Program-made: the position numbers and the translations under genes
NCBI RefSeq assembly: GCF_018408855.1
Contig: NZ_AP024322.1
Location: 124,001 to 188,000 of the forward strand
Origin: Caballeronia sp. NK8
GTDB lineage: Bacteria > Pseudomonadota > Gammaproteobacteria > Burkholderiales > Burkholderiaceae
Direction: 5' to 3'
DNA length: 64,000 nucleotides
Notes under the pieces: generated by a model
Told to the model about the DNA's origin: nothing
The model's input: the letters and a program-made list of their open reading frames with translations, nothing else
The model's database searches: none
Shown: positions 1,432 through 20,909 of the stretch, piece by piece
Layout: every line of letters begins with the position of its first letter
Position numbering within the stretch: position 1 is the stretch's first letter

Positions 1432-2430
1432 ATGAGCACCGAACGCGAACGTCCGATCTTCATCAAGCGCATCGTCGCCGGCAAGAAGGGCCATCACGGC
1501 GGCGCGTGGAAGCTCGCCTATGCGGACTTCATGACCGCGATGATGGCGTTCTTCCTGCTGATGTGGCTGCTTTCGTCGACCTCGCCGGTGCAGCGGCGCG
1601 GCATCGCCGAGTACTTCAACATGCCGCTCAAGGCGGCGATGGTCGGCGGCAAGACCGTCGGCATGGACAACAGCATCCTGACCGGCGGCGGACGCGACAT
1701 CTCCAGCAGCGAAGCGGGCGCGGCGCGCAAGACCAATGGCAGCACGCAGCTCGCGCAACGCGCCTCGTCCGACGCCGACGAAGAATTGCTCAAGGCCGCG
1801 CAAGGCGAGCTGGAACGGCGCGAACAGGTGCGCCTGCACGATCTTCAGGTGAAGCTCATGGCCGCGATCGAGGCCAATCCCACGTTGCGCCAGTTCAGGC
1901 AGCAGATCCGCATCGAATCGACGCAGCAGGGCTTGCGCATCGAGATCGTCGATACCCAGAAGCGCCCGATGTTCGCGCTCTCCAGCGACGCCGTGCAGCC
2001 CTACATGCGCGACATCCTGCGCGAGATCGGCAGGACGTTGAACGACGTGCCGAACCGCATCGTCGTGCAGGGGCACACCGACGCCGTGAAGTACGCCGGC
2101 GGCGACAAGGGCTACAGCAACTGGGAGCTGTCGGCGGACCGCGCCAACGCGTCACGGCGCGAGCTGGTTGCGGGCGGCATGGACGAGGCGAAAGTGCTGC
2201 GCGTGCTCGGCCTTTCATCGACGCAGAACCTGAACAAAAAGGACCCGCTCGATCCGGAGAACCGGCGCATCAGCGTCATCGTGCTCAACCGGCGGGCGGA
2301 AATGTCGATGTTGCGCGACGACGGCTCGCCCGGCGCGACGCTCGACAACGGCACGGACGAGCAAGGCGCGCCCACGACTGCGCTCGGCCAGCTTATTCCC
2401 GGTGTCGCGGCTCGGCCTGCGGCGCATTGA
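1432..2430 (+). CDS. motB: Flagellar motor stator protein MotB
   Basis: MotB anchors the stator to peptidoglycan and carries the proton-binding aspartate. The single transmembrane helix (about residues 30-48) begins AYADFMTAMMAFFLLMWL. Asp32 is the proton-conducting residue. The C-terminal half (about 180-300) is an OmpA-like peptidoglycan-binding domain with VQGHTDAVKY and the motif NWELSADRANASRR. At 332 residues it is slightly longer than the E. coli protein because of a variable tail. The gene lies 25 bases after motA and belongs to the same transcript. Confidence 0.96.
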   Translation: MSTERERPIFIKRIVAGKKGHHGGAWKLAYADFMTAMMAFFLLMWLLSSTSPVQRRGIAEYFNMPLKAAMVGGKTVGMDNSILTGGGRDISSSEAGAARKTNGSTQLAQRASSDADEELLKAAQGELERREQVRLHDLQVKLMAAIEANPTLRQFRQQIRIESTQQGLRIEIVDTQKRPMFALSSDAVQPYMRDILREIGRTLNDVPNRIVVQGHTDAVKYAGGDKGYSNWELSADRANASRRELVAGGMDEAKVLRVLGLSSTQNLNKKDPLDPENRRISVIVLNRRAEMSMLRDDGSPGATLDNGTDEQGAPTTALGQLIPGVAARPAAH

Positions 2431-2497
2431 GCAGATTGCTCGAAAAAGACGCTCAAGACTCGACACGTTTTGACCGTCATCCCGGCAAGAGACAAAC

Positions 2498-2875
2498 ATG
2501 ATCAAACACATTCTGGCAATCGACGATTCCGCCGCGATGCGGCAAATCCTCTCGGCGACGCTGTCGACGGCGGGTTACGAAGTGACCGTCGCGTCGGACG
2601 GCGACGAAGGCCTGGAGTGGGCGCTCGCGGAGCGCTTCGATCTCGTTCTGACCGACCAGCACATGCCGGGCAGAAGCGGGCTCGATCTGATCGTGGCGCT
2701 GCGCGGCAACCCCGCTTACAAGGCGACGCCGATTCTCGTGCTGACGACCGAAGGCGGCGAGCCGTTCAAGGACGCGGCGCGTTCGGCGGGCGCGACGGGC
2801 TGGATCGAGAAGCCGCTCGATCCGGACCTGCTGACCGAACTCGTCGCCGCGCTCTCGGAAGACACGCAGCACTGA
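2498..2875 (+). CDS. Single-domain CheY-like response regulator
   Basis: A 125-residue stand-alone receiver domain. The acidic pocket is Asp9-Asp10, the phospho-acceptor is Asp53 (LTDQHMPG), and the conserved lysine is in WIEKPLD near residue 104. There is no output domain, so it probably works by protein contact or as a phosphate sink for CheA, encoded 51 bases downstream. A second, more canonical CheY is encoded at 10553. Burkholderiaceae che operons often hold this first receiver just upstream of cheA. Which of the two binds the flagellar switch cannot be told from sequence; the second resembles E. coli CheY more closely. Confidence 0.92.
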   Translation: MIKHILAIDDSAAMRQILSATLSTAGYEVTVASDGDEGLEWALAERFDLVLTDQHMPGRSGLDLIVALRGNPAYKATPILVLTTEGGEPFKDAARSAGATGWIEKPLDPDLLTELVAALSEDTQH

Positions 2876-2926
2876 AGCCGAAGCCCAAGACAACCCGCGC
2901 AAGCACGCGCCGATGGTGACTCAAGC

Positions 2927-5203
2927 ATGACACTCGACATTACCCAGTTCTACCAGACCTTCTTCGACGAAGCGGACGAACTGCTCGCGCAGATGGAGCA
3001 GCTGCTGCTCGTTCTGGATATCGCGAATCCGGACCCGGAAGACCTCGCGGCGATCTTTCGCGCGGCGCACTCGATCAAGGGCGGCGCGGCGACCTTCGGC
3101 TTCACCGCGCTCACCGAAACGACGCACATTCTCGAATCGCTGCTGGACCGCGCACGCAACAACGAGCTGGTCCTGCGCCGCGACATGATCGACACCTTCC
3201 TCGCGACCAAGGACGTGCTCTCGGACCAGCTCGCCGCCTATCGCGCGAGCGCCGAGCCGGATGCGGCCGCGGCCGCCGCGATCTGCGCGAAGCTGGAACG
3301 CCTGAAGAACGAGACCGCCGAAGCCGGCGATGCGCCCGCGAAGATCGAGCCGCCCGCGCTGCCGGGCACGCAGCAAGTCGCGTCGAACGCGAGCGTCGCG
3401 CCCGCCTACGAAGGACCGAACGCCGCGCCCGCGCACGTGGTCGCGCAGGCGATGGACGCGATCGAGGACGACGGCAACTGGGACGGCGCGTTCGAGCTCA
3501 CCGATGGAATCACGCATGCAGGAACCGCTGCCGATGCAACGCCGGGACACACCGGCGCACCGGTGGCGGAAGTTGGACCCCACCTGAAAATTACGCTACG
3601 GGGGGTGGGCGAGAAGGACCTGGCAACGCTGATCGGCGAGCTGGGGAATCTGGGAAGCATCGTCGGAGAAAAGAAGACGGACGCCGAGTACGTGGTATGG
3701 CTCGACTCGGACGTCCCGGCCGACGATATCGTCGCTGTGTGCTGTTTCGTGATTGATGAAGCGCAGATCACGATCGGCCGTGGCGACGCGGCGGCGCAAT
3801 CCGCCGAAGCAACGCCGGCAGTGGAAGAAGCACGACCCACGCTACGGGAAGAGCCGAAGCAATCGCAGGCGCAGGCAGCGCCCGCATCCGCGGCCAGCAA
3901 GGAAGCAGCAAAAGAAGAAGCGGCGGCGGCGGGTGTACAACACCCGTCCGCCCAGCCGTCCAGAACCGCCGCGAGCGATGCCGACAAGAAGGCGCGCCCG
4001 CAGGCCGCCGCATCGGCGGAAGGCAGCTCGATTCGCGTCGGCGTGGAGAAGGTCGATCAGCTCATCAATCTGGTGGGTGAACTCGTCATCACGCAGGCGA
4101 TGCTCGCGGAAACCACGAGCACGTTCGATCCCGCCTTGCACGACCGCCTTTTCAACGGCATGGCGCAGCTCGAGCGCAACGCGCGCGATCTGCAAGAGGC
4201 CGTCATGTCCATCCGCATGATGCCGATGGACTACGTATTCAGCCGCTTCCCGCGCCTCGTGCGCGATATCGCCGGCAAGCTCGGCAAGGAAGTGGAACTC
4301 GTCACGTTCGGTCAGGCGACCGAGCTCGACAAGAGCCTGATCGAGCGCATCATCGATCCGCTCACGCACCTCGTGCGCAACTCGCTCGATCACGGCATCG
4401 AGACCGTGGAAGCGCGCCGCGCGGCGGGCAAGTCGACCACCGGCCAGCTCGTGCTGTCGGCGGCGCATCACGGCGGCAACATCGTCATCGAAGTAAGCGA
4501 CGACGGCGCCGGCCTGCGCCGCGACAAGATTCTCGCGAAGGCGCAGAAGCAGGGCATGCAGGTGTCCGATTCGATGAGCGATGAAGAAGTCTGGCAACTC
4601 ATCTTCATGCCGGGCTTTTCGACCGCCGAACAGGTGACCGATATCTCCGGCCGCGGTGTGGGCATGGACGTGGTGAAGCGCAACATCCAGTCGATGGGCG
4701 GCCACGTCGAAATCATGTCGCGCCAGGGCGCGGGCACGACGACGAAGATCGTGCTGCCGCTCACGCTCGCGATTCTCGACGGCATGTCGGTGAAGGTCGG
4801 CAACGAGATCTTCATCTTGCCGCTGAACTTCGTGATGGAGTCGCTGCAGCCGGTCGCCGAAGACATCTACACGGTCGCGAACGGCGAGCGCGTGGTGCGC
4901 GTGCGCGGTGAATATCTGCCGCTCGTCGCGTTGCATCGCGTGTTCGATGTCGAAGGCGCGCGCACCGAGCCGACGCAAGGCATCGTCACGATCATGCAGA
5001 CCGAGGGACGGCGTTTCGCCATGCTGATCGACGAACTCGTCGGCCAGCAGCAGGTCGTCGTGAAGAACCTCGAAACCAATTACCGCAAGGTGCACGGCAT
5101 CTCCGCCGCGACCATCCTGGGCGATGGCAGCGTCGCGCTGATCGTCGACGTGGCCGCGCTCAACCGCGAATCGCGCGCACAGCACGGCGCGCACTCTCAT
5201 TGA
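2927..5203 (+). CDS. cheA: Chemotaxis sensor histidine kinase CheA
   Basis: The 758-residue CheA takes signals from receptor-CheW arrays and phosphorylates CheY and CheB. The N-terminal HPt domain has phospho-His48 in [16 protein letters not shown]2-like CheY-docking segment (about 220-285) follows a long Ala/Pro linker. The P3 dimerisation helix ([18 protein letters not shown]) leads to the ATPase domain with the N box ([12 protein letters not shown]), G1 (VSDDGAGL) and G2 ([10 protein letters not shown]). The C-terminal P5 domain is CheW-like. Codon choice in the linker and P2 stretch (about 3500-3990) is less GC-biased and includes a run of six G, which suits a fast-drifting region. The stop is followed by the cheW ribosome site. 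Confidence 0.97.
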
Positions 5204-7591: not shown

Positions 7592-7748
7592 ACGAAACCG
7601 AAACGACAACGACCATGCTGGCCTCGCGCGACACGACTGATTACCGGCGTTTCATCGAAACGCACGGACGACGCGAGTCCGCATGGTCACGCGCGACGAA
7701 CACGCCACATCGGGCGCGGCTGAGCGCGCCAAGGAAGCACGAGACATC

Positions 7749-8672
7749 ATGATGGCAACGCGCAACCCGCGCGTCGACCTGGCCCCGAGTGTGCGGGGCC
7801 CGGAAGTCGAGCGCGATTTCGAATTCACGGTGGCGGATTTCGCCCGCATTCGCGAGCTGATTCATCGGCGCGCGGGCATCTCGCTGTCGGACCATAAACG
7901 CGACATGGCGTACAGCCGCCTCGCGCGCCGTCTGCGCGCATGCGGCATCGATACGTTCAAGCAGTATCTCGATCGCCTCGAAACGAACGAGGACAACGCC
8001 GAGTGGGAAGCGTTCGTCAACGCGCTGACCACCAACCTGACGGCGTTCTTCCGCGAGTCGCATCACTTTCCGATTCTCGCGGAGTTCGTGAAGCGCCGGC
8101 AGCAGCCGTTCTCGGTGTGGTGCTCGGCGGCGTCGACGGGCGAGGAGCCGTATTCCATCGCGATGACGCTCGTCGAAGCGCTCGGCGAGCACGCCGCGCG
8201 CCAGTGCACGGTGTTCGCGAGCGACATCGACAGTCAGGTGCTCGCCAAGGCCGAAGCGGGCGTGTATTCGCTCGATCAGGTGAAGGCATTGTCCGTCGAG
8301 CGTCTCAAGCGCTTCTTCCTGAAGGGCACCGGTTCGCACGCGGGTCTCGTGAAAGTGCGCCCCGAATTGCGCGCGATGGTGAACTTCGGCCGCGTGAATC
8401 TGACCGACGCGCGCTACGACCTGAAAGGCCCGTTCGACGCGATCTTCTGCCGCAACGTGATGATCTACTTCGACAAGCCGACGCAAGGCCAGGTGCTCTC
8501 GCGCTTCGAGCCGCTGATGAAGCCGGGCGGCCTGTTGTTCGCGGGACATTCGGAGAATTTCACGTACGTGTCGCAGGCGTTCAGGTTGCGCGGCCAGACC
8601 GTGTATGAGCTGTCGCGCGACCTCAAGCCGGCGGCGAAGCCGCAGCGCGCGCTCGCGGGAGAGACGGCATGA
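7749..8672 (+). CDS. cheR: Chemotaxis protein methyltransferase CheR
   Basis: CheR methylates receptor glutamates with S-adenosylmethionine. The N-terminal helical domain ([19 protein letters not shown]) precedes the methyltransferase domain with the SAM-binding motif [16 protein letters not shown] and [15 protein letters not shown] chose the ATG at 7749 because AAGGAAG (7731-7737) precedes it. A longer form from 7683 adds 22 residues without a good ribosome site. The length is then 307 residues, normal for the family. The stop overlaps the start of cheD by 4 bases (ATGA), indicating translational coupling. Confidence 0.95.
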
Positions 8673-9403
8673 GCGGGCTGCCCATCGCGTCGAATCTTTA
8701 CTTCGACAATCATTTCAAGAAGCCGGGCGTGAAGCTCCTGCCGAACGAGTTCTACATGACGAGCGAAGACATGGTGCTCGTCACCGTGCTCGGCTCGTGC
8801 GTGGCGGCGTGCATCAACGATCGCACGGCGGGCATCGGCGGCATGAATCATTTCATGCTGCCCGACGACGGCTCCGACGCATCGCACGCATCGTCCGATT
8901 CGATGCGCTACGGCGCGTACGCGATGGAAGTGCTCATCAACGAGCTCATCAAGCGTGGCGGGCGGCGCGAACGCTTCGAAGCAAAAGTGTTCGGCGGCGG
9001 CGCGGTGCTCGCGGGCATGACGACCATCAACATCGGCGATCGCAATTCGGAATTCGTGCGGCGCTATCTCGCGCTGGAGAAGATCCGCATCGTCGCCGAG
9101 GACTTGCAGGGCATGCATCCGCGCAAGGTCGCGTTCATGCCGCGCTCGGGCCAGGTGATGGTGAAGAAACTGAAGACCGCGCATGACCCGGTCGTGGTCG
9201 AACGCGAGCAGGCGCTCGTGCAGCGCACGCCGGAAGAGCGCGCCGAACGGCTCGCGAAGGCGCGTGCGCGTGTCGAGCTGTTCCAGTCGAACACGGCGAG
9301 CACGAAACCGCGCGCGGAATTGTTCACGACGAATGCGTCGGGCGTGAAGCGCCCGCGTGCGGAACTGTTCACGTCGCGTATGAAGATCGTGGAGGAAGCA
9401 TGA
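8669..9403 (+). CDS. cheD: Receptor glutamine deamidase CheD with repeat tail
   Basis: CheD deamidates receptor glutamines and can interact with phosphatases in some bacteria. The core holds the catalytic cysteine and histidine regions: [15 protein letters not shown], then [10 protein letters not shown]. At 244 residues it is longer than usual. The extra C-terminal 45 residues contain three copies of R(V/A)ELF followed by Gln/Thr and Ser/Thr, coded at 9269, 9311 and 9356. The function of this tail is unknown. It overlaps both cheR and cheB by 4 bases, so the three modification enzymes are translationally coupled. Confidence 0.94.
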
Positions 9404-10503
9404 CACTCAGCCACGCGCCGAAAATCAAGGTGCTGTGCGTCGACGACTCGGCGCTCGTGCGCAGCCTGATGACCGAAATCATCAACTCGCAGCCCGACAT
9501 GCACGTCTGCGCGACCGCGCCCGATCCGCTCGTCGCGCGCGAGCTGATCAAGCTGCACAACCCGGACGTGCTGACGCTCGACGTCGAAATGCCGCGCATG
9601 GACGGCCTCGACTTTCTCGAAAAGCTGATGCGCCTGCGGCCGATGCCGGTCGTGATGGTGTCGTCGCTGACCGAGCGCGGCAACGAAATCACGCTGCGCG
9701 CCCTGGAACTCGGCGCGGTCGATTTCGTCACGAAGCCGAAAGTCGGCATTCGCGACGGCATGCTCGATTACGCCGAAAAGCTCGCCGACAAGATTCGCGC
9801 CGCGTCGCGCGCGCGCGTCAAGCAGGCGGCGCACGCGTCGAGCGTTCCCGCGAACGCGAACGCGGCTGCGCACAAGCCCGCGCCGCATTTCAACAACCCG
9901 CTCGTGTCGACGGAAAAGCTCGTGATCGTCGGCGCATCGACGGGCGGCACGGAAGCGATCCGCGAAGTGCTCGTGCCGCTGCCGCCCGATGCGCCCGCGG
10001 TGCTCATCGCGCAGCACATGCCGCCGGGCTTCACGAAATCGTTCGCGCAGCGCCTGAACGGGCTGTGCCGCATCACCGTGAAGGAAGCGGAGCACGGCGA
10101 GCGCGTGCTGCCGGGTCACGCGTATATCGCGCCGGGCCACGCGCATCTGTTGCTCGCGAGAAGCGGCGCGAACTATGTCGCGCATCTGTCGGATGCGGCG
10201 CCGGTGAACCGGCATCGGCCTTCGGTCGACGTGCTGTTCCGCTCGGCGGCGCAGCACGCGGGCAAGAACGCGATCGGCGTGATCCTGACCGGCATGGGCC
10301 GCGACGGCGCCGCCGGTCTTCTGGAGATGCAGCAGGCGGGCGCATACACGCTCGCGCAGGACGAAGCGAGTTGCGTGGTGTTCGGCATGCCGCGCGAAGC
10401 GATTGCAATGGGCGGCGCAAGCGAGATCGCGCCGCTCTCTGAAATGAGCCGGCGCGTGATGGCGCGGCTTGCCTCGATGGGCGAACGCGTGCAGCGCGTC
10501 TGA
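9400..10503 (+). CDS. cheB: Chemotaxis methylesterase/deamidase CheB
   Basis: CheB removes receptor methyl groups and is activated by CheA-dependent phosphorylation. The receiver domain (1-125) has phospho-Asp61 ([10 protein letters not shown]). An Ala-rich linker leads to the methylesterase domain with the Ser motif [14 protein letters not shown], the His motif [16 protein letters not shown] and the Asp motif GMGRDGAAG, which together give the Ser-His-Asp triad. At 367 residues it is a normal length. It follows cheD with a 4-base overlap and precedes cheY by 49 bases. Confidence 0.97.
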
Positions 10504-10552
10504 ACTTTGGAATTGAGCGGCGCCGCCGCATTGAGAACTCAAGGGAGTAAAG

Positions 10553-10948
10553 ATGGACAAGAACATGAAGATCCTCGTCGTCGACGATTTTCCGACGATG
10601 CGCCGTATCGTGCGCAACCTGCTCAAGGAACTGGGCTACGGCAACGTCGACGAAGCCGAAGACGGCGCGGCGGGCCTCGCGCGTCTGCGTGGCGGCGGCT
10701 TCGACTTCGTGATCACCGACTGGAACATGCCGAACCTCGACGGCCTCTCGATGTTGCAGCAGATCCGCGCGGACGCGGCGCTCGCGCATCTGCCGGTGCT
10801 GATGGTGACGGCGGAATCGAAGAAGGAAAACATCATCGCGGCGGCGCAGGCGGGCGCGAACGGTTACGTGGTGAAGCCCTTCACGGCCGCCACGCTCGAC
10901 GAGAAGCTCACCAAGATTCTCGAGAAGATGGCCAAAGCCGGGAGCTGA
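10553..10948 (+). CDS. cheY: Chemotaxis response regulator CheY
   Basis: A 131-residue CheY that, when phosphorylated, binds FliM and changes flagellar rotation. Asp11-Asp12, phospho-Asp56 ([11 protein letters not shown]), Thr86 (LMVTAESKK) and Lys108 (YVVKPF) are all present and arranged as in E. coli CheY, including the WNMP signature. A good ribosome site (AAGGGAG) precedes the start. The gene lies directly before cheZ, which encodes its phosphatase. Confidence 0.97.
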
Positions 10949-10950
10949 TC

Positions 10951-11658
10951 GTGAACGATCTGACCACTGAACTGGCAGCCGCGGTTGCCGAAGCTGAAGC
11001 CGATCCGTCGAGCGACCGCATCCTCGCGCGCATCGGACAGCTCACGCGCACGCTGCGCGACTCGATGCGCGAGCTGGGCCTCGACAAGCAGGTCGAAGCC
11101 GCCGCGCAGGCCGTGCCCGACGCGCGCGACCGGTTGAAATATGTCGCGACGATGACCGAGCAGGCCGCCGAACGCGCGCTCAACGCGATCGAGCTCGCCA
11201 AGCCGATGCAGGAAGCGATGCAGACCGAAGCGCAGGCGCTCGACGCGCGCTGGGCCAAATGGTACGACGCGCCGCTCGCGCAGGGCGAGGCCGGCGAATT
11301 GCTCGCGCAAACCCGCACGTTCCTGCAAAGCGTGCCGCAACGCACCCAGGCGACCAACGCGCAACTGCTGGAAATCATGCTCGCGCAGGACTTCCAGGAT
11401 CTGACCGGCCAGGTTATCAAGAAGATTACGGACGTCGTGTATCTGATCGAACAGCAATTGCTGGGCGTGCTGCTCGAGAACATCGCGCCCGAGCGGCGCG
11501 AGCAGTTCGCGGCATCGGCGGCGGCGCTGATGTCGTCGGTGGCGAGCGGCAGTCCGGAAAGCCTGCTCAACGGGCCGCAGATCAATCCCGAAGGCCGCAG
11601 CGACGTCGTGCAGGATCAGTCGCAAGTGGACGATCTGCTCGCCAGTCTGGGCTTCTGA
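10951..11658 (+). CDS. cheZ: CheY-P phosphatase CheZ
   Basis: CheZ dephosphorylates CheY-P. Translation most likely begins at GTG 10951 (VNDLTTELAAAVAEAEA), two bases after the cheY stop, giving 235 residues. The active-site signature AQDFQDLTGQVIKKI carries the catalytic Asp and Gln, and the protein ends VDDLLASLGF, the typical C-terminal CheY-docking peptide. The long central helix is Ala/Glu/Gln-rich. It is the last gene of the operon and is followed by an intrinsic terminator. Confidence 0.95.
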   Translation: MNDLTTELAAAVAEAEADPSSDRILARIGQLTRTLRDSMRELGLDKQVEAAAQAVPDARDRLKYVATMTEQAAERALNAIELAKPMQEAMQTEAQALDARWAKWYDAPLAQGEAGELLAQTRTFLQSVPQRTQATNAQLLEIMLAQDFQDLTGQVIKKITDVVYLIEQQLLGVLLENIAPERREQFAASAAALMSSVASGSPESLLNGPQINPEGRSDVVQDQSQVDDLLASLGF

Positions 11659-13965: not shown

Positions 13966-14220
13966 TCACACCGTCGGACCGCCACCTGCCACAATCAGGG
14001 TCGCGCCGCAGGTGGTGCTGCTACCGTGATGCGCGATATTGCGGCCTTCGATTGCGCCGAGACCGCCACCGGTGATGACGCCTGGACCGTGCAAAGGACA
14101 TGTGACGGTATCGCCGACGCGCGCGGCGGGACGGCCGTCGATTACCAGATTGGAACTGGCGGTGGTTACCATGCCGCCGTGGGTGGTGGGGGTGCCGAGG
14201 GTTGCGATTGGGGTTGTCAT
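13966..14220 (-). CDS. Free-standing PAAR-domain protein
   Basis: An 84-residue PAAR protein, the conical cap that sharpens the VgrG spike of a type VI secretion system. The PAAR fold shows as repeated short Gly/His motifs: GTPTTHGGMVTTAS, then RPAARVGDTVTCPLHGPG, and a later His/Cys pair (AHHGSSTTCGA) that can hold zinc. I start at the ATG at 14220 (MTTPIATLG); a GTG at 14256 would add 12 residues. It is last on the minus-strand series vgrG, rhs, putative immunity, PAAR, and probably caps that VgrG. In many Rhs systems the PAAR is instead fused to the Rhs N-terminus. Confidence 0.85.
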   Translation of the reverse strand: MTTPIATLGTPTTHGGMVTTASSNLVIDGRPAARVGDTVTCPLHGPGVITGGGLGAIEGRNIAHHGSSTTCGATLIVAGGGPTV

Positions 14221-14439
14221 GAGAGGGCTATGAATGTTCCGTCGGCTCGTGAGCACGGGGAAAACAGCAAGGATAAGAGTGCTGCGATTTCCGACGAGGA
14301 TGCGGCATCAACTCCACAGAACTCGAGATCGAAGAGTACTGTCTACTGATAGGTTACCGCTTCTTGCCTTGCAGACGCATTCAACGTCAGGCGCATGCAA
14401 AGCAATAAAGCTTGTCTTGGCCTTGGCACTTGGTCGGTA
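14221..14439. other. AT-rich gap between the PAAR and putative immunity genes
   Basis: 219 bases without a convincing gene on either strand. The short open frames here overlap the AT-rich immunity region antisense and have no ribosome site. It may be decayed DNA left by exchange of Rhs tip cassettes. Confidence 0.4.
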
Positions 14440-14952
14440 TTACACCCTGCATCTTAGAATTCTGCGTATTTCAGAATCGATCACATTCTCATCTCTGCTA
14501 GATAAAGCCATGCAAAACCTAATGAATGAAAATATTGCAAATAGTATGGTCAGAAGTGCAATTGAAAATGCAATGATTTTCGCCTCCGACACCTCACCGA
14601 ATTTCGCCAATAACATCATCATGAAGATTGAAAAACATGAAAACAATGCAAAACTAAAATTAACCGCCCGACTCACGTATGACTTTCGATAGAACCCAGT
14701 TAATCGAGAGCCGTCGTCAGAGGCAATCATTTTACCAACAAATACCACGTACCACGCGTTAAGCAGATTCGAATGCATATACGCCAATCGAACTTCATTA
14801 TTTTTCAAATAACCAGTAAGCCCTTCGGTCCGCCGTAAGCCAGATACCTGAACGCAGAGTGATTGATGGATCGCACCGCGAGCCTCTTGCAATGGCATGG
14901 ATGAATAAAATTCTCGCGTTTCACTTTTATAAAAGAAGAATTGCTTTAACAT
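14440..14952 (-). CDS. Putative Rhs immunity protein, membrane-bound
   Basis: A 170-residue protein I cannot assign to a named family. The N-terminal 95 residues look like a beta-rich soluble domain (LTGYLKNNEVRLAYMH, then WYVVFVGKMI and a GSRLTGFYR strand). Two hydrophobic helices follow: NFSFALFSCFSIFMMMLLA and IIAFSIALLTILFAIFSFI. Its ATG directly abuts the rhs stop (TAAATG), so the two are translationally coupled. The DNA is strikingly AT-rich against a GC-rich chromosome, a mark of horizontally acquired immunity genes. Position, coupling and composition support an immunity role against the Rhs tip. A membrane immunity protein fits a membrane- or periplasm-acting toxin, but this is inference. 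Confidence 0.7.
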   Translation of the reverse strand: MLKQFFFYKSETREFYSSMPLQEARGAIHQSLCVQVSGLRRTEGLTGYLKNNEVRLAYMHSNLLNAWYVVFVGKMIASDDGSRLTGFYRKSYVSRAVNFSFALFSCFSIFMMMLLAKFGEVSEAKIIAFSIALLTILFAIFSFIRFCMALSSRDENVIDSEIRRILRCRV

Positions 14953-17900
14953 TTAATGTCTGAGGCATAGTGAATATTGTTGAGATGCTATCAATCCAGC
15001 AGCGGTACCAGCGCCTACTCCCACGCTTCCGGAGATAGATCCGCTCGTCGCGTTTAACAGATTAACGCTGTCCGTCTGAACAGAGCCCCCCCCTTTTGCT
15101 AACAGCCCTCCTGTGGCGAACCCGCCGTATGACAGACTTCTCCCCGTTATAGTCGGTGAGGAACTGAGGGTAGTGCTTACAGCAAGTCCACCGGCCGCAC
15201 CTGGACCAGCAGTCTGAGAAAGATTCAGATACAAACAAGCATCCGGCAGTGCATCCTCGCGTGCTTTGCTGAATGCGATGCCGACAGCTGCCCCACCGCC
15301 AGCGGCAACATGACCTGAGATGCCCCCATCGACGGACACTGATCCGTGAAAATCCCGCCAAGCATCACCGATTGATCGAGCGCCGGGATTGGGTGAGGAA
15401 GCGAGCACCTTGCCAATGTCATCCTGACTGGCACCGTTATCCTGCATCCATTGGGCGAGTGATACTTGTTGCCGTATTGCTTCGGCTCCGGAAAACCCCG
15501 CGAGAGCCTGCAGACCTAGCGGATCGACTCGTCGTACGGGGAGACTTCGAACATAGGCATATTTGTTTGCCCCCCCTAACAACCCAATCGGATCCTGATT
15601 AACATACCTCCCCGCCTGCGCATCGTAATACCTGAACCGGTTGTAACACAGCCCGCTCTCCACATCGTAATACTGGCCGGGAAGCCGTATCGGATTTTCC
15701 ACCTCGCGCGCGAAGCAATGCCGCATCTTTCCGTACGCGCTGAACTCCGCCGCCCACACCACCTTGCGCTGGTCATCATAGAGTTCCTGTGGCGTGCCCA
15801 GATGATCCGTAACGTAGTGGAACACCACCCCGCCCTCGAGTTTCGCGAGCGGCCCCGCGTGATCGGGATGCGGCACATACACGATCTGACGATCATCACG
15901 CGCCGTATCGCCTGCATGCACCTCCTGCATCATCCAGTCGCCATCCCATACGAACAGCGTTGTCTTCTGCACGCCATCGGCCGATGCATGTTCCTTCGCG
16001 ATACGTCGCCCCAGCGCATCGTACGTGTAGCGACTGCGCGCGCCATCGTCGTGATCGATGGCTGCAAGCTGGTGAGCGCCGTCGTAGCGGTAGCGCGTCA
16101 CGTGCGGCCGGGGTTCGGGCGTCGCCTTCGGTTGCACACCTGTGATCGTATCCATCACCCGGATGAAGCTGTCCTTCGCCGTCGGTTCTGGCACGGGCGG
16201 CAACGGCACCGTGCGCGTAGTCCGGTTGCCGTGACCATCGTGCTCATACAGCAGCGCCTGCGGCGCGGCCACCTCCGGCGTCACCAACGCCTGCAACCGG
16301 TCGCCTTCGGCCCGACCGATCCATCCCGCGTGACCCACCGCGAGCAGATTGCCCGCCGCATCGTAGGCGAACGCCTCGTCCCCGGCGCGCCCGCCGTTCA
16401 CGCTGATCAACCGCGCGAGCGGATCGTAGCGATACTGCTTCTCGCCGCGCCATGCATCGCGCAACGCTGTGATCTGGCCGCTCTCGTCGTGGCTCCAGTT
16501 GCGCCACGCACGCGGCGACTCCAGCGCACGGCCACGCGCGTCCAGATTCTGCCACTGATGTTGCGCGAGCTGTCCCGTCGGCCCATAGCCATAGTGATGC
16601 GCCGCCGGTCCCTGCACACGCACCGTTTCACGGTGCAGCGCATCGCGCTCGAAGCTCGCGAGCGCCGCGCCATCGAGCAGCACGCCATGCACATGTCCCG
16701 ATCCATAGCGCTGCCACGCCAGCGTGCCCACGCCGGGCATCCGGCTCGCCGTGCGATGACCCAGCGCATTCAGCTCATGCGCAAGCCGCCACACGCGCCC
16801 ATGATGCGCCTGCACTTCCGCCGTGCGCCGCCCCCCGGCATCGTATTCGAACGTGATCTGGCTCGGCGTCTGACCCGGCGATGACGCCTGCGCCTGCGTG
16901 AGCAGCCCGCGCGCGTCGTAACGATAGCTCGCCTGGCTGCCATCGCTCGCGCGACGCTCGATCGCGCGGCCCAGCACGTCATACGTGATGTCGGTGATGA
17001 TCTGGCCATCGTCGCCGTGATCGGTGCGCGTGGTCATCTCGCCCGCCGCGTTGTAGCGGAACGACTGTCTGCGTCCGTCGAAGCCCGTCTGTTCGATCAG
17101 GCGATCGCGGCTATCGTAGGTGAAGGTCGTCGTGTCGCCGTTCGCGTTGTGCAATGCGGTCACACGGCCGATCGGATCGTACTCGAACCGCTGCGCACCG
17201 CCCGCCGGGTCGATGACCGCGAGCCGCTGGTCGTAGGCATCCCACTCGGTGCGCGTGATCCGCTTCAGCGGATCGCGATGCGCGACCGCGCGGCCCGCCT
17301 CGTCGTAGTCGATGCGCCACCAGCCCATGCCCGCCGGCTGGTAGCCCGTGAAGCGTCCTGCGCCACTCGTTGCGTAGAAGCTGGCGTGGCCGAGCGCATC
17401 GGTGGTCTGCGTGAGGTTGCCGAGCGTGTCGTAGTCGTATCGCGTCGTATGGCCCGAGCAATCGGTACGGGCGATCATCTGGCCCGCGCCATCCCATTGC
17501 ATGCGCGTGACGTTGCCGAGCGCATCGGTGCGCGTAACCGGCATGCCGTCGCGATACGCATAGGACGTCGTGTTGCCCAGTGGATCGGTCTCGGTGACGA
17601 GATGGCCCGCATCGTCGTACGCGCGTTGCCAGAGCTGGCCCGCCGGATCGGCGATCTGTATCGGCTGATTCAACTCGTCGTAGCTCACGCGCGTGACGTT
17701 GCCCGCAGCGTCGATGATCGTCGTCGCGTTGCCGCGCGTGTCGTTGACGATGCGCGTCGCGCGGCCGAGTTCGTCGGTGTAGCCGCTTATGCTGCCGGTT
17801 TCGTCGAAGTGCGTCTGACGGATCGCGCCATCGGAATACAGCACGCGGTCCACCGCCCACAGGCCGTTGTAGTGGTATTCGGTTGTGCGCCCCAGGCCAT

Positions 17901-19128
17901 CGGTGACGCGCGTGGTGCTCGCGCCCGGCAGATAGGTGAAGCGCGTGTCGCGGGTGATTCTCTTGTTGTCATCGACATAGGCGAAGGTGCGTGTCACGCG
18001 TGCCTGTGGCGTATCGCCAGCCCACTCGCAGATGTGCGTCGCGCCCGCCGGCGTGCGGTAGTGCGTGAGCAGATGGCGTCGATACGCATAGCGCCATGTA
18101 AGTCCCGCACGATTGGTCGCCTCAATCAGGTCGCCTTGCGCATCGTAGACGTAGCTGGCGAGACACATATCGCCCAGCAGCACCTGCGTGATGCGGCCCG
18201 CGTCATCGAGTATGCAATGCACCGCATGGACGTTGTTGCGTACTTCCCGCAGATAACCCTTCGGCGTGTAGCCGAGCAGCAGCACGTGGCCATCGCGGTT
18301 CGTGACACGTTGCAGTTGCCAGCGCGCGTCGTCGTTCGGATGCGGCGCATAGTGCTCCTCGACGCCGTTGCCAAAGCGCACGATGAACGTCGCGCTGTCC
18401 ACGTCGCGCACGAGCGTGTACTTCTCGATCGCATGAAAGTGATCCTGTCCGGCCTCCAGTGCCGGAAACTGCAGTTGCCGGCCATCGGCATCGAAGTAGA
18501 CGAGGCCCGTCGCGCTGCGTCGAATCTCGGTGGCGTACGGCAGCTTCCATGCGATGCCCAGACTACCCGCGCGCTGATCCGCGCTGCGATAGCTGCGCCC
18601 CCAGCGAATCGGTATCCGTCCCGGCAACGTGAAGTCGTGCTGCACCAGCACCTTCTGACCGGTCGCGACATCGACGGGATGGCTGCTCGTCGTCTTCTTC
18701 GCGCACTCGGCGCAGTCCGCTTCGGTCACCGGCGGAAGGCCGTCCGCGCCGCCGCCCGTCATGCTGATCACCGGCGACTTCAGGCGAATGCTGACGCCCT
18801 CGATCGTGATGCCGGATGCATCGATCGTCACCTTGCCACCGGGCCCGACCAACTGCGCCTGCTTCGCGCCCGACAGATGCGCGTCGCCAGCATCGGTGAT
18901 GCGCAACTGGTTCGACTCCGCGCTCGACACCGGCGCGGGCAACTGCGCCGCAAACTCCGGCGATACATCAACGGGCCGGGCCAGATCCGCCTTGACCGCG
19001 TCGCTCACCGCCTTGCCGCGCACGGTCACGGCATACGTATGCCCGACGTCCGACGTCCATTCGTGCGCCACGCGATCGGTGCGGCTCATGCCCACCGTGC
19101 TCGCCATCTGCAGCGCGACGTTGCGCAA
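14953..19128 (-). CDS. Rhs-family type VI cargo protein with variable C-terminal tip
   Basis: A 1,391-residue Rhs protein. The first 130 residues are not Rhs: they are the tail of a VgrG (TIDASGITIEGVSIRLKS spike repeats), showing that this frame was once continuous with the vgrG upstream. The YD-repeat shell starts near SHPVDVATGQKV and runs to the core end DPIGLLGGANKYAYV, closing with RRVDPLGL. After that comes a 185-residue tip very rich in Gly, Ser and Ala (for example SISGSVGVGAGTAAGLIAS). I recognise no nuclease, deaminase or ADP-ribosyltransferase motif in it. Translation would have to use TTG 19128 or an internal ATG unless a frameshift joins it to vgrG. Confidence 0.88.
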   Translation of the reverse strand: MRNVALQMASTVGMSRTDRVAHEWTSDVGHTYAVTVRGKAVSDAVKADLARPVDVSPEFAAQLPAPVSSAESNQLRITDAGDAHLSGAKQAQLVGPGGKVTIDASGITIEGVSIRLKSPVISMTGGGADGLPPVTEADCAECAKKTTSSHPVDVATGQKVLVQHDFTLPGRIPIRWGRSYRSADQRAGSLGIAWKLPYATEIRRSATGLVYFDADGRQLQFPALEAGQDHFHAIEKYTLVRDVDSATFIVRFGNGVEEHYAPHPNDDARWQLQRVTNRDGHVLLLGYTPKGYLREVRNNVHAVHCILDDAGRITQVLLGDMCLASYVYDAQGDLIEATNRAGLTWRYAYRRHLLTHYRTPAGATHICEWAGDTPQARVTRTFAYVDDNKRITRDTRFTYLPGASTTRVTDGLGRTTEYHYNGLWAVDRVLYSDGAIRQTHFDETGSISGYTDELGRATRIVNDTRGNATTIIDAAGNVTRVSYDELNQPIQIADPAGQLWQRAYDDAGHLVTETDPLGNTTSYAYRDGMPVTRTDALGNVTRMQWDGAGQMIARTDCSGHTTRYDYDTLGNLTQTTDALGHASFYATSGAGRFTGYQPAGMGWWRIDYDEAGRAVAHRDPLKRITRTEWDAYDQRLAVIDPAGGAQRFEYDPIGRVTALHNANGDTTTFTYDSRDRLIEQTGFDGRRQSFRYNAAGEMTTRTDHGDDGQIITDITYDVLGRAIERRASDGSQASYRYDARGLLTQAQASSPGQTPSQITFEYDAGGRRTAEVQAHHGRVWRLAHELNALGHRTASRMPGVGTLAWQRYGSGHVHGVLLDGAALASFERDALHRETVRVQGPAAHHYGYGPTGQLAQHQWQNLDARGRALESPRAWRNWSHDESGQITALRDAWRGEKQYRYDPLARLISVNGGRAGDEAFAYDAAGNLLAVGHAGWIGRAEGDRLQALVTPEVAAPQALLYEHDGHGNRTTRTVPLPPVPEPTAKDSFIRVMDTITGVQPKATPEPRPHVTRYRYDGAHQLAAIDHDDGARSRYTYDALGRRIAKEHASADGVQKTTLFVWDGDWMMQEVHAGDTARDDRQIVYVPHPDHAGPLAKLEGGVVFHYVTDHLGTPQELYDDQRKVVWAAEFSAYGKMRHCFAREVENPIRLPGQYYDVESGLCYNRFRYYDAQAGRYVNQDPIGLLGGANKYAYVRSLPVRRVDPLGLQALAGFSGAEAIRQQVSLAQWMQDNGASQDDIGKVLASSPNPGARSIGDAWRDFHGSVSVDGGISGHVAAGGGAAVGIAFSKAREDALPDACLYLNLSQTAGPGAAGGLAVSTTLSSSPTITGRSLSYGGFATGGLLAKGGGSVQTDSVNLLNATSGSISGSVGVGAGTAAGLIASQQYSLCLRH

Positions 19129-20909
19129 GTACAGCCCACCGACACGTTCATGTTGTACGCCAGCCCGACGTTGAGCATATGCCCGAGCCCGACGTTCTGC
19201 ACCGCCGCGAGATCGATGGTCTCGAACTTGTAGCCGCCCGTATGCAGCGTCCAGTTGCGTCCGATCCGGTCCGACTCGTCGTGACCGATGCGCTTCGTGC
19301 GGTCGTGACCCACCGTGTGCGTTTCGTCGTGCTCGACCTCGGTATCGAGGTTGCGCTCAGCCTGAATCCAGACCTGCTCGGCGCCGCGCTTGTCCTCGAA
19401 GCGGATCGCGTTGGCGTTCTCGTAACCCGCGCCTTTTGACGAGCGTGTGAGCAGGCCGCTTTGCGTCGCATTGGCCGGCAAATCCCACGGCGGCATCGTT
19501 TGCGCGTTGTAGACGCGCCCGATCACCACAGGCCGGTCCGGATCGCCATTCTCGAAATCGACGATGACTTCGGTCCCCACGCGCGGAATGTGGATGCCCC
19601 CGAAGTTACTGCCCGCCCACGGGTACGACACCCGCACCCAGCACGACGAACGATGATCCTTCGCGCCGTGGCGGTCCCAATGGAAAGCCAGCTTCACGCG
19701 CCCGTACTGGTCCGTCCAGATTTCGCTATTCGGCGCACCGGTCACCACTGCGGTCTGCGGTCCGGTGGTGCGCGGCTTCGGATAGCGTTCGCGCGACGGG
19801 CGGAACACGGTCGTGGCCGGCTGTGCATCGAACTCGACCCGGATGCGGAAGCGTTCACCGGTGCCGGTTGCATCGGCGAGTTCCTGCGCATCCAGCTTCG
19901 CGCGAAGCACCAGATACTCACGGTTCGCGTTCGGCTGGGGATGGCCCGTCAGCGTAAAGGTCGTGCCGCATACGACGGCGCGCAGATTGCCCTCACCGGC
20001 GGCACCTTCGCTCTGTGCGTGCAGTGCTTCCATGCGAAGCCGCGCAACCTGTTCGCCCTCGTCGCGTTCGGTGTAGTCGCCGGGCCACTCATAGCGTTCG
20101 AGCCGGTTGTGCGCGGTATCGCGTGGCAGTTCGCTGCTGGCTTCGAGTTGCGCTGCGGGTTTCTTGAAGTGGTAGTCGTCGGTCGCCCAGATGCCTGTCT
20201 GGATACGCTCGGTGAGCGTGAAGTGATCGATATACTCGCGGTCGATCTTGTGATCAGGCGGGTAGTACCACAGCGTGTGATAGGCGGCGCTGTCGACCGG
20301 CTTGTGTGCGCCCACATGATCGACCAGCACCATCCGGTGAAAGCTGTTCGAGTGCTCGAAGAACCAGTAGATGCCGTGTTCGGCCATCAGGCGCTGGATG
20401 AAGCGGTAATCCGTCTCTCCGTATTGCACCTGATAGTCGATCGCGGGGTAGGCGCTGCTCAGCCGCAGATCGTACGAATAGAGGTAGTTGCCCAACACCT
20501 CTTCGATGATCTCGACGACGGTTTTGCGTTGATAAATTCGGTAGTCCGAACGCAAGTCCGCAAGGGCAAGCCAGGGTTGCAGCACGACCCGATAGCGTGA
20601 TATACGGTTCAACCGATCCACGAATCCGGCTTCCGTCACGATGCCGCTGATCTCGCGTGTGCCCGCGCTCATGCCGTCGAGCTGAATGGTTACCGTCAGC
20701 TCCTTGCCGATCAGAGTCTTCAGATCGATCGATGCCGCCAGCGCCTCGGGCATCTCCAGCGACGTGGAGAGAAGCAACTCGTATCGGTAGAGGGTCGAGA
20801 GTTTTTCCTCGCCCTTGATGGCGCTCAATCGAAGGGCCGATGAGCCATCGGGCAGCGTGGGCAACGCAGCGCCGCTGACGGACAACGTGCGGGACGGGGG
20901 GAAGATCAT
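19086..20909 (-). CDS. vgrG: Type VI secretion spike protein VgrG, frameshifted at its end
   Basis: VgrG forms the trimeric needle tip of the type VI machine. The 607-residue frame has the phage gp27-like region (LSAIKGEEKLSTLYRYELLL, then YGETDYRFIQRLMAEHGIYW) and the gp5 OB/needle part (DQYGRVKLAFHWDRHG, SSCWVRVSYPWAG, GTEVIVDFENGDPDRPVV). True VgrG similarity ends near NVGLAYNMNV; the last 15 residues are out-of-frame noise before a stop at 19086. The expected continuation, GLYLRNVALQMAST, is found in the overlapping rhs frame, so VgrG and Rhs appear to be one coding unit split by a frameshift. No other type VI genes are in the window. Confidence 0.88.
   Translation of the reverse strand: MIFPPSRTLSVSGAALPTLPDGSSALRLSAIKGEEKLSTLYRYELLLSTSLEMPEALAASIDLKTLIGKELTVTIQLDGMSAGTREISGIVTEAGFVDRLNRISRYRVVLQPWLALADLRSDYRIYQRKTVVEIIEEVLGNYLYSYDLRLSSAYPAIDYQVQYGETDYRFIQRLMAEHGIYWFFEHSNSFHRMVLVDHVGAHKPVDSAAYHTLWYYPPDHKIDREYIDHFTLTERIQTGIWATDDYHFKKPAAQLEASSELPRDTAHNRLERYEWPGDYTERDEGEQVARLRMEALHAQSEGAAGEGNLRAVVCGTTFTLTGHPQPNANREYLVLRAKLDAQELADATGTGERFRIRVEFDAQPATTVFRPSRERYPKPRTTGPQTAVVTGAPNSEIWTDQYGRVKLAFHWDRHGAKDHRSSCWVRVSYPWAGSNFGGIHIPRVGTEVIVDFENGDPDRPVVIGRVYNAQTMPPWDLPANATQSGLLTRSSKGAGYENANAIRFEDKRGAEQVWIQAERNLDTEVEHDETHTVGHDRTKRIGHDESDRIGRNWTLHTGGYKFETIDLAAVQNVGLGHMLNVGLAYNMNVSVGCTCATSRCRWRARWA
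19142..19145 (-). other. Frameshift point between vgrG and rhs (apparent GT duplication)
   Basis: On the minus strand the sequence reads AACGTGTCGGTGGGCTG. Removing one GT gives AAC GTC GGT GGG CTG (NVGGL), which restores the usual VgrG sequence and joins the two frames without loss. A one-base deletion in the nearby GGG would be an alternative. It may be a real mutation, a slippage site or a sequencing error. Confidence 0.7.

Follow-up and report, generated by a model that had tools for sequence, protein, structure and literature searches.

What does the C-terminal tip of the Rhs protein encoded in the window do, and against which part of a target cell is it directed? The window is the whole stretch of 64,000 nucleotides that was analysed. 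Our preferred reading, held with a probability of roughly 0.58, is that the tip is an antibacterial toxin domain of an unmodelled family, is delivered by a type VI secretion system (T6SS) and, acting from the periplasm, permeabilises the inner membrane. From the sequences alone we infer the toxicity of the window tip, its cleavage, delivery, site of action, permeabilising activity and disulphides, and the immunity role of its neighbour.

The Rhs locus and its paralogue

On the minus strand the genes run in the order VgrG, Rhs frame, 170-residue membrane protein and PAAR protein, as read from the open reading frames of the window and their family matches. VgrG (607 residues, 19086..20909) lies in a different frame from Rhs and overlaps it. 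The Rhs frame occupies 14953..19128 and ends at 14953; its core, with library matches to DUF6531, YD repeats and Rhs_assc_core, covers 15511..19128. At the boundary between Rhs and toxin (15514..15594) stands an aspartyl-protease-type motif, DPIG-X19-DPLG, recognised by its positions and spacing. The corresponding motif of Tse5, DPXGX19DPXG, is described as being cut right after DPXGL (PMC10684867).

Self-cleavage at the same place in the window protein would leave a fragment of 18.0 kDa (14956..15510). The original prediction of a tip of 185 residues rich in Gly, Ser and Ala holds exactly: 185 residues follow DPLGL, and 45.9% of them are Gly, Ala or Ser, compared with a mean of 25.2% and a maximum of 32.4% in segments of that length taken every 5 residues along the core. 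Gly alone makes up 17.3% of the tip (core mean 9.9%, maximum 13.5%, in segments of equal length). The immunity protein had been proposed to be of membrane type, and the gene directly downstream (14440..14952) does encode a protein of 170 residues with two predicted transmembrane (TM) segments, at residues 97-115 and 126-144. Its ATG abuts the Rhs stop codon with a gap of 0. Beyond it lies the gene for a PAAR-motif protein of 96 residues (13966..14256; PF05488, E 1e-19). In GC content the tip (56.1%) and above all the immunity gene (40.2%) fall below the core (65.5%) and the PAAR gene (64.6%), a dip that would be expected if a cassette had been exchanged.

A second vgrG-rhs locus of this genome (L067, contig C4, 1911-9359) carries a different, Cys-rich tip and a protein that looks ankyrin-like by eye. 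Its Rhs protein is 95% identical to that of the window over the first 600 residues and stays similar up to residue 1210, which lies only a few positions beyond the cleavage motif; the PAAR proteins of the two loci share 92% identity (82 of 89). Because the same core carries another tip in the paralogue, we regard the window tip as an exchanged module on a common chassis. The window protein has the core, the DPxG cleavage motif and the variable C-terminal tip of a polymorphic Rhs effector. The T6SS sheath family TIGR03355, which we take to be TssC, has three matches in the genome, on other contigs, C3 and C4.

VgrG and Rhs of the paralogue form a single frame of 1955 residues, whereas those of the window are in different frames that overlap at 19086-19128; with the two split between frames, delivery of the effector is uncertain. 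This split, together with the absence of an inner pair of cysteines described below, could mean that the window effector is degenerate or silent, which we consider quite improbable. Against it, the frames of tip and immunity protein are open and abut exactly, and the sequence ATGA (19086-19089) contains both the stop of VgrG and an in-frame Rhs ATG, so that Rhs could be translated separately.

Beside the Rhs island, at 7683-11658 of the window, lie chemotaxis-like frames resembling, by eye, the CheR, CheD, CheB, CheY and CheZ types.

Relatives of the tip and their cysteine pattern

The tip had been called unrecognised and free of any enzyme motif, and profile searches bear this out: no family of Pfam, NCBIfam or PHROGs matched it at E<=1. 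The best match among PDB sequences had an E-value of 0.47, or 0.24 with the family profile described below. Used alone as a query against 5.8 billion proteins (8000 candidates sharing most words were scored), or against genome contigs, plasmids, phages and viral contigs, the tip returned only itself or nothing. The immunity protein had a single database match, 100% identical over 89%.

Relatives were found through a scan of 398 genomes of the same taxonomic family. Matches at E<=0.1 occurred in 55 genomes, one being the window's own, and the best E-value in the other 54 was 0.00146 or higher. Among 18 of 29 other loci that were inspected, L019 alone resembled a real relative, with a first weak match (E 0.025, 38%) at the end of a frame of 4341 residues. 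Searched in turn against the 398 genomes, the L019 tail matched four: itself, two with similar tails (57 and 60%), and the window, the reverse match to the window tip having an E-value of 2.8e-5. Profile scans then matched 7 of 398 genomes for the phylum, 5 of 369 for the class and 9 of 399 for the order, counts that include the window, repeats and weak rows later dropped; L040, L041, L042, L046 and L056 were kept. A protein database contributed P0003 (from Paraburkholderia sp. JHI869), P0004 (the L032/L038 locus) and P0005. The final set consists of the window and ten tails: L031 (the same place as L019), L032, L033, L040, L041, L042, L046, L056, P0003 and P0005.

The tails appear to come from two kinds of protein. 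We call L031, L032, L033, P0003 and P0005 CdiA-type, a provisional assignment made because an NRQLH-containing stretch before the tail is common to them. L031 has a haemagglutinin-repeat match, and none was found in L032 or L033; P0003 and P0005 matched no NCBIfam model. The LYN of the (E/Q)LYN pretoxin motif, described for Burkholderia in PMC9086364, is present in L031, L033 and P0003. Four of the five scan-derived tails (L040, L041, L046 and L056) belong to frames with Rhs_assc_core above cut-off, the fifth, L042, being a frame of 166 residues. About 30 residues separate the Rhs core from the tail in L041, and about 200 or more in L040 and L056. In L046 nothing separates the Rhs core from the domain, which makes up the entire tip; this argues that the domain is the toxin rather than a linker. 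In the window, 48 residues (15367..15510) intervene between the cleavage motif and the family domain, without counterpart in L046. The domain itself, supported by leave-one-out profile and reverse match, comprises 137 residues as cut (14956..15366).

At about 1989-2798 of L031, beyond the CdiA-type tail and a gene with three TM segments, LYNRQLHPDE recurs in frame, in the manner of an orphan CdiA-CT module.

Chance matches are to be expected among Gly-rich sequences; every target was therefore left out of the profile that scored it, and its score was set against 1000 shuffles. This was done for 7 of the 11 sequences, the similar CdiA-type tails L032, L033, P0003 and P0005 standing outside. The window scored 54.6 bits, with a maximum of 11.9 among its shuffles and 7.0 for its reversed sequence; omitting L041 as well left 48.9 bits versus a shuffle maximum of 6.3. 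Scores for the relatives were 128.2 bits for L031, 69.7 for L040, 61.9 for L041 (47.9 without the window too, shuffle maximum 15.8), 63.9 for L042 and 55.9 for L046, the weakest being L056 with 25.9 bits versus 7.1. The window thus belongs to the family by profile beyond what composition gives.

Rows dropped before counting were G609, G459 and G426 in the phylum scan, G929, G910 and G890 in the class scan, and G1164, G566, G1368 and G1226 in the order scan. When the 11 rows set aside, including L052, were rescored with the 11-row profile, 9 of 11 exceeded their own 200 shuffles; rows chosen as the best of a genome may do so. The highest besides L052 were L054 (18.9 bits), L047 (17.0) and L055 (15.3), whose frames are ordinary enzymes by eye. 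Since such rows reach 18.9 bits, scores below about 20 are no proof of membership. L056 (E 0.003) was kept because it ends an Rhs frame and has four cysteines and a neighbour with two TM segments. L052 (E 1.2e-8, 26.5 bits) was set aside as a family member, having no cysteine and no Rhs in view. Its frame of 237 Gly-rich residues (1159-1869 of L052), with no Rhs or CdiA context seen, is possibly a stand-alone distant relative.

All ten relatives carry a four-cysteine set, C1-x5-C2 ... C3-x5-C4, with the exceptions that the second pair is spaced x6 in L056 and that L046 has a fifth cysteine. The window keeps cysteine at C1 (15235..15237) and C4 (14965..14967), by alignment and translation, and at the positions aligned by the profile with C2 (15217..15219) and C3 (14983..14985) has serine, encoded by TCT in both cases. 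Lacking the full set, it counts as a divergent relative through profile homology only. Of the two cysteines predicted near the end of the tip, both exist, at residues 95 and 185 of 188 counted from 15519, and only the latter is near the end. Loss of C2 and C3 as a pair would follow from nested disulphides C1-C4 and C2-C3; this bonding pattern is a prediction, with one such member known. Serine at both inner positions would also suit a degenerate effector, and against that reading the two substitutions fall as a set.

Taken together, these comparisons show the tip to be a divergent member of an unmodelled domain family, of about 125 residues, common to Rhs and CdiA-type proteins. The L031, L041 and L046 tails had no match among PHROGs. 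Relatives of the L041, L031, L046 and L056 tails were sought in plasmids, of the L041 tail in phages, and of the family tails in viral contigs, without a match; nor did L041 DNA find a relative in E. coli genomes. Among the matches listed for genome contigs, tail relatives came from one locus, L038, on the same contig as L032.

Strand-type periodicity and membrane-type neighbours

If the tip acts on a membrane, it might do so through helices or through strands. An alpha-helical depolarising toxin, of the kind of the CDI ionophores, W-TIP or the glycine zippers, would account for a Gly-rich tip with a membrane immunity protein, a combination described for the glycine-zipper toxin EsxX (PMC12744356), and the loose pattern small-xxx-small-xxx-small is slightly more frequent in the tip than in shuffles (24 vs 16.9, P 0.054). 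We nevertheless judge a helical toxin highly improbable. None of the eleven tails has a 19-residue Kyte-Doolittle segment that reaches 1.6, the highest value being 1.50; the whole 185-residue window tip peaks at 1.21, and no TM helix is predicted in it. GxxxGxxxG occurs once in the tip, at chance level (shuffle mean 0.84, P 0.54), and the Gly-richness of the tip is not a glycine-zipper signature.

Periodicity points the same way. Hydrophobicity averaged over the alignment gave a z of 4.9 at 180 degrees and of -2.2 at the helical 100 degrees, relative to 500 column shuffles, that is, above and below chance, respectively. On two scales, and in three subsets (eight sequences sharing no more than about 50% identity; the set without the window; the set without Gly), the 180-degree z ranged from 2.5 to 5.6, with 150 shuffles each. 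In single sequences the 180-degree signal is weak or absent, with z of 1.5 for the window, 2.2 for L031, 0.7 for L041 and 0.2 for L046. A two-residue periodicity of the family suggests beta strands and is silent on whether they meet a membrane. We predict from the alignment a Gly-rich domain of about 125 residues composed mostly of beta strands, usually with two cysteine pairs.

An Asp is kept in all 11 sequences, a Tyr in 10 of 11 and a Gln in 9 of 11. These residues would suit an envelope enzyme with an unrecognised fold, to which we give a very small chance. Columns shared by 10 or more of the 11 sequences consist, Asp and Tyr aside, of Gly and Cys, and few polar columns are conserved; and the absence of a library match to the window tip at E<=1 and of a convincing PDB match likewise speaks against an enzyme. 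A strand-rich and Gly-rich domain with no TM helices and few conserved polar residues argues for a non-enzymatic toxin that inserts or binds.

The target compartment is suggested by the genes that follow. In nine loci (the window, L031, L032, L033 and L068-L072), the nearest downstream frame of at least 60 residues, with the first possible start codon taken, begins between -29 and +14 nt from the stop codon of the tail in 9 of 9. In L068 a second frame, without TM segments, begins 36 nt downstream of the stop codon, and the count uses the frame nearest to the tail. In 8 of 9 the product of the next gene has two or three predicted TM segments and is 68-170 residues long. In L070, the ninth, the tail has a neighbour of 155 residues whose hydrophobic start ends in LSGC, read as a lipobox, and which is therefore a probable lipoprotein. 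All nine loci accordingly have an adjacent membrane or membrane-anchored protein, and the suggestion that the tip is possibly membrane-acting gains support from this distribution, multi-pass in eight and probably lipid-anchored in one. Beyond the lipoprotein gene of the L070 Rhs tail, at about 2124-3332 on the minus strand, is a frame that looks transposase-like by eye.

The neighbours of L031-L033 are mutually related, and that of L071 is weakly related to them, so the nine loci represent several, not nine, independent events. The window immunity protein is unrelated in sequence to the neighbours of its relatives. A small control (n=4) used Rhs proteins with other complete tips, L076 being left out as its frame ends without a tip: 3 of 4 neighbours have no TM segment, and the fourth, in the own-genome paralogue, has four, so other tips, too, can have membrane neighbours. 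Because several unrelated immunity genes all encode membrane-spanning or membrane-anchored proteins, a target in the envelope is the simplest reason.

An envelope target need not be the lipid bilayer. A beta-rich periplasmic toxin might instead block an inner-membrane target, such as a transporter, lipid II or the cell-wall machinery, without forming pores, and the immunity protein would then shield that target. Immunity proteins that are small, mostly unrelated and membrane-spanning, with one lipoprotein among them, would fit the protection of a periplasm-facing target, and a two-residue periodicity fits a soluble binding domain or beta sandwich as well. We consider blocking unlikely: immunity proteins differ among members, while one common target would favour a shared feature, and Gly-richness with long alternating stretches would be unusual for a binding domain. 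We rank permeabilisation first and blocking of an inner-membrane target second.

Proposed mode of action and known systems

Under the preferred reading of a permeabilising toxin, the T6SS would carry the Rhs effector on its VgrG/PAAR spike, and self-cleavage of the Rhs shell after DPLGL would free the 185-residue fragment at the target envelope. At the cytoplasmic membrane, which it would attack from the periplasm, the fragment would most likely insert beta strands or hairpins through which ions leak; the adjacent protein with two TM segments, seated in the producer's inner membrane, would guard that cell. We also entertain, tentatively, that such tips form a class of beta-strand, disulphide-stapled pore formers swapped between T6SS Rhs proteins and two-partner CdiA-type proteins, in contrast to CDI ionophores and W-TIP, which are helical. 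A fast-diverging domain found in both weapon classes, unmatched in Pfam, NCBIfam and PHROGs, flanked by membrane-type genes and with the periodicity of strands, is a testable candidate for a strand-based toxin class. Two papers describe pore-forming T6SS effectors as relatively few or rare (PMC12669606, PMC11148199).

Among known systems, Tse5-CT/Tsi5, a pore-forming Rhs toxin of P. aeruginosa and its immunity protein, is most alike in anatomy. As described in PMC9637101 and PMC10684867, it shares the Rhs shell, the DPXG-X19-DPXG motif, a similar tip size, the lack of a predicted enzyme activity, and an immunity protein with two predicted TM regions. In the PDB search only the Rhs core of the window protein matched the Tse5 chain, and Tse5 is absent among tip matches at E up to 10, a search in which the Tse5 tip may not be represented as a separate PDB chain.

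CDI ionophores resemble the tip family as C-terminal toxins of CdiA-type proteins with polymorphic immunity proteins, and are modelled as membrane-spanning bundles of five helices (PMC11630599), unlike a family with strand-type periodicity and without a predicted TM helix. EsxX, with its glycine zipper and polytopic membrane immunity proteins (PMC12744356), and TelE, which needs its glycine zipper (PMC10434224), are described as toxins with glycines in the toxic C-terminal domain, as here; both are delivered by the T7SS, unlike the window tip, whose glycine-zipper pattern does not exceed chance. Tox-WTIP, listed as pore-forming in the 2012 catalogue of polymorphic toxins, is likewise a non-enzymatic tip found with RHS repeats; the catalogue gives it two membrane-spanning helices with RxxR and W-TIP motifs (PMC3482391), compared with no predicted TM helix in the window tip. 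TpeV, a permeabilising T6SS effector of V. cholerae, is similar by description, containing cysteines, lacking extensive TM prediction and being toxic from the periplasm; it differs in having 11 cysteines, and the text of PMC8386463 available to us does not describe it as an Rhs tip.
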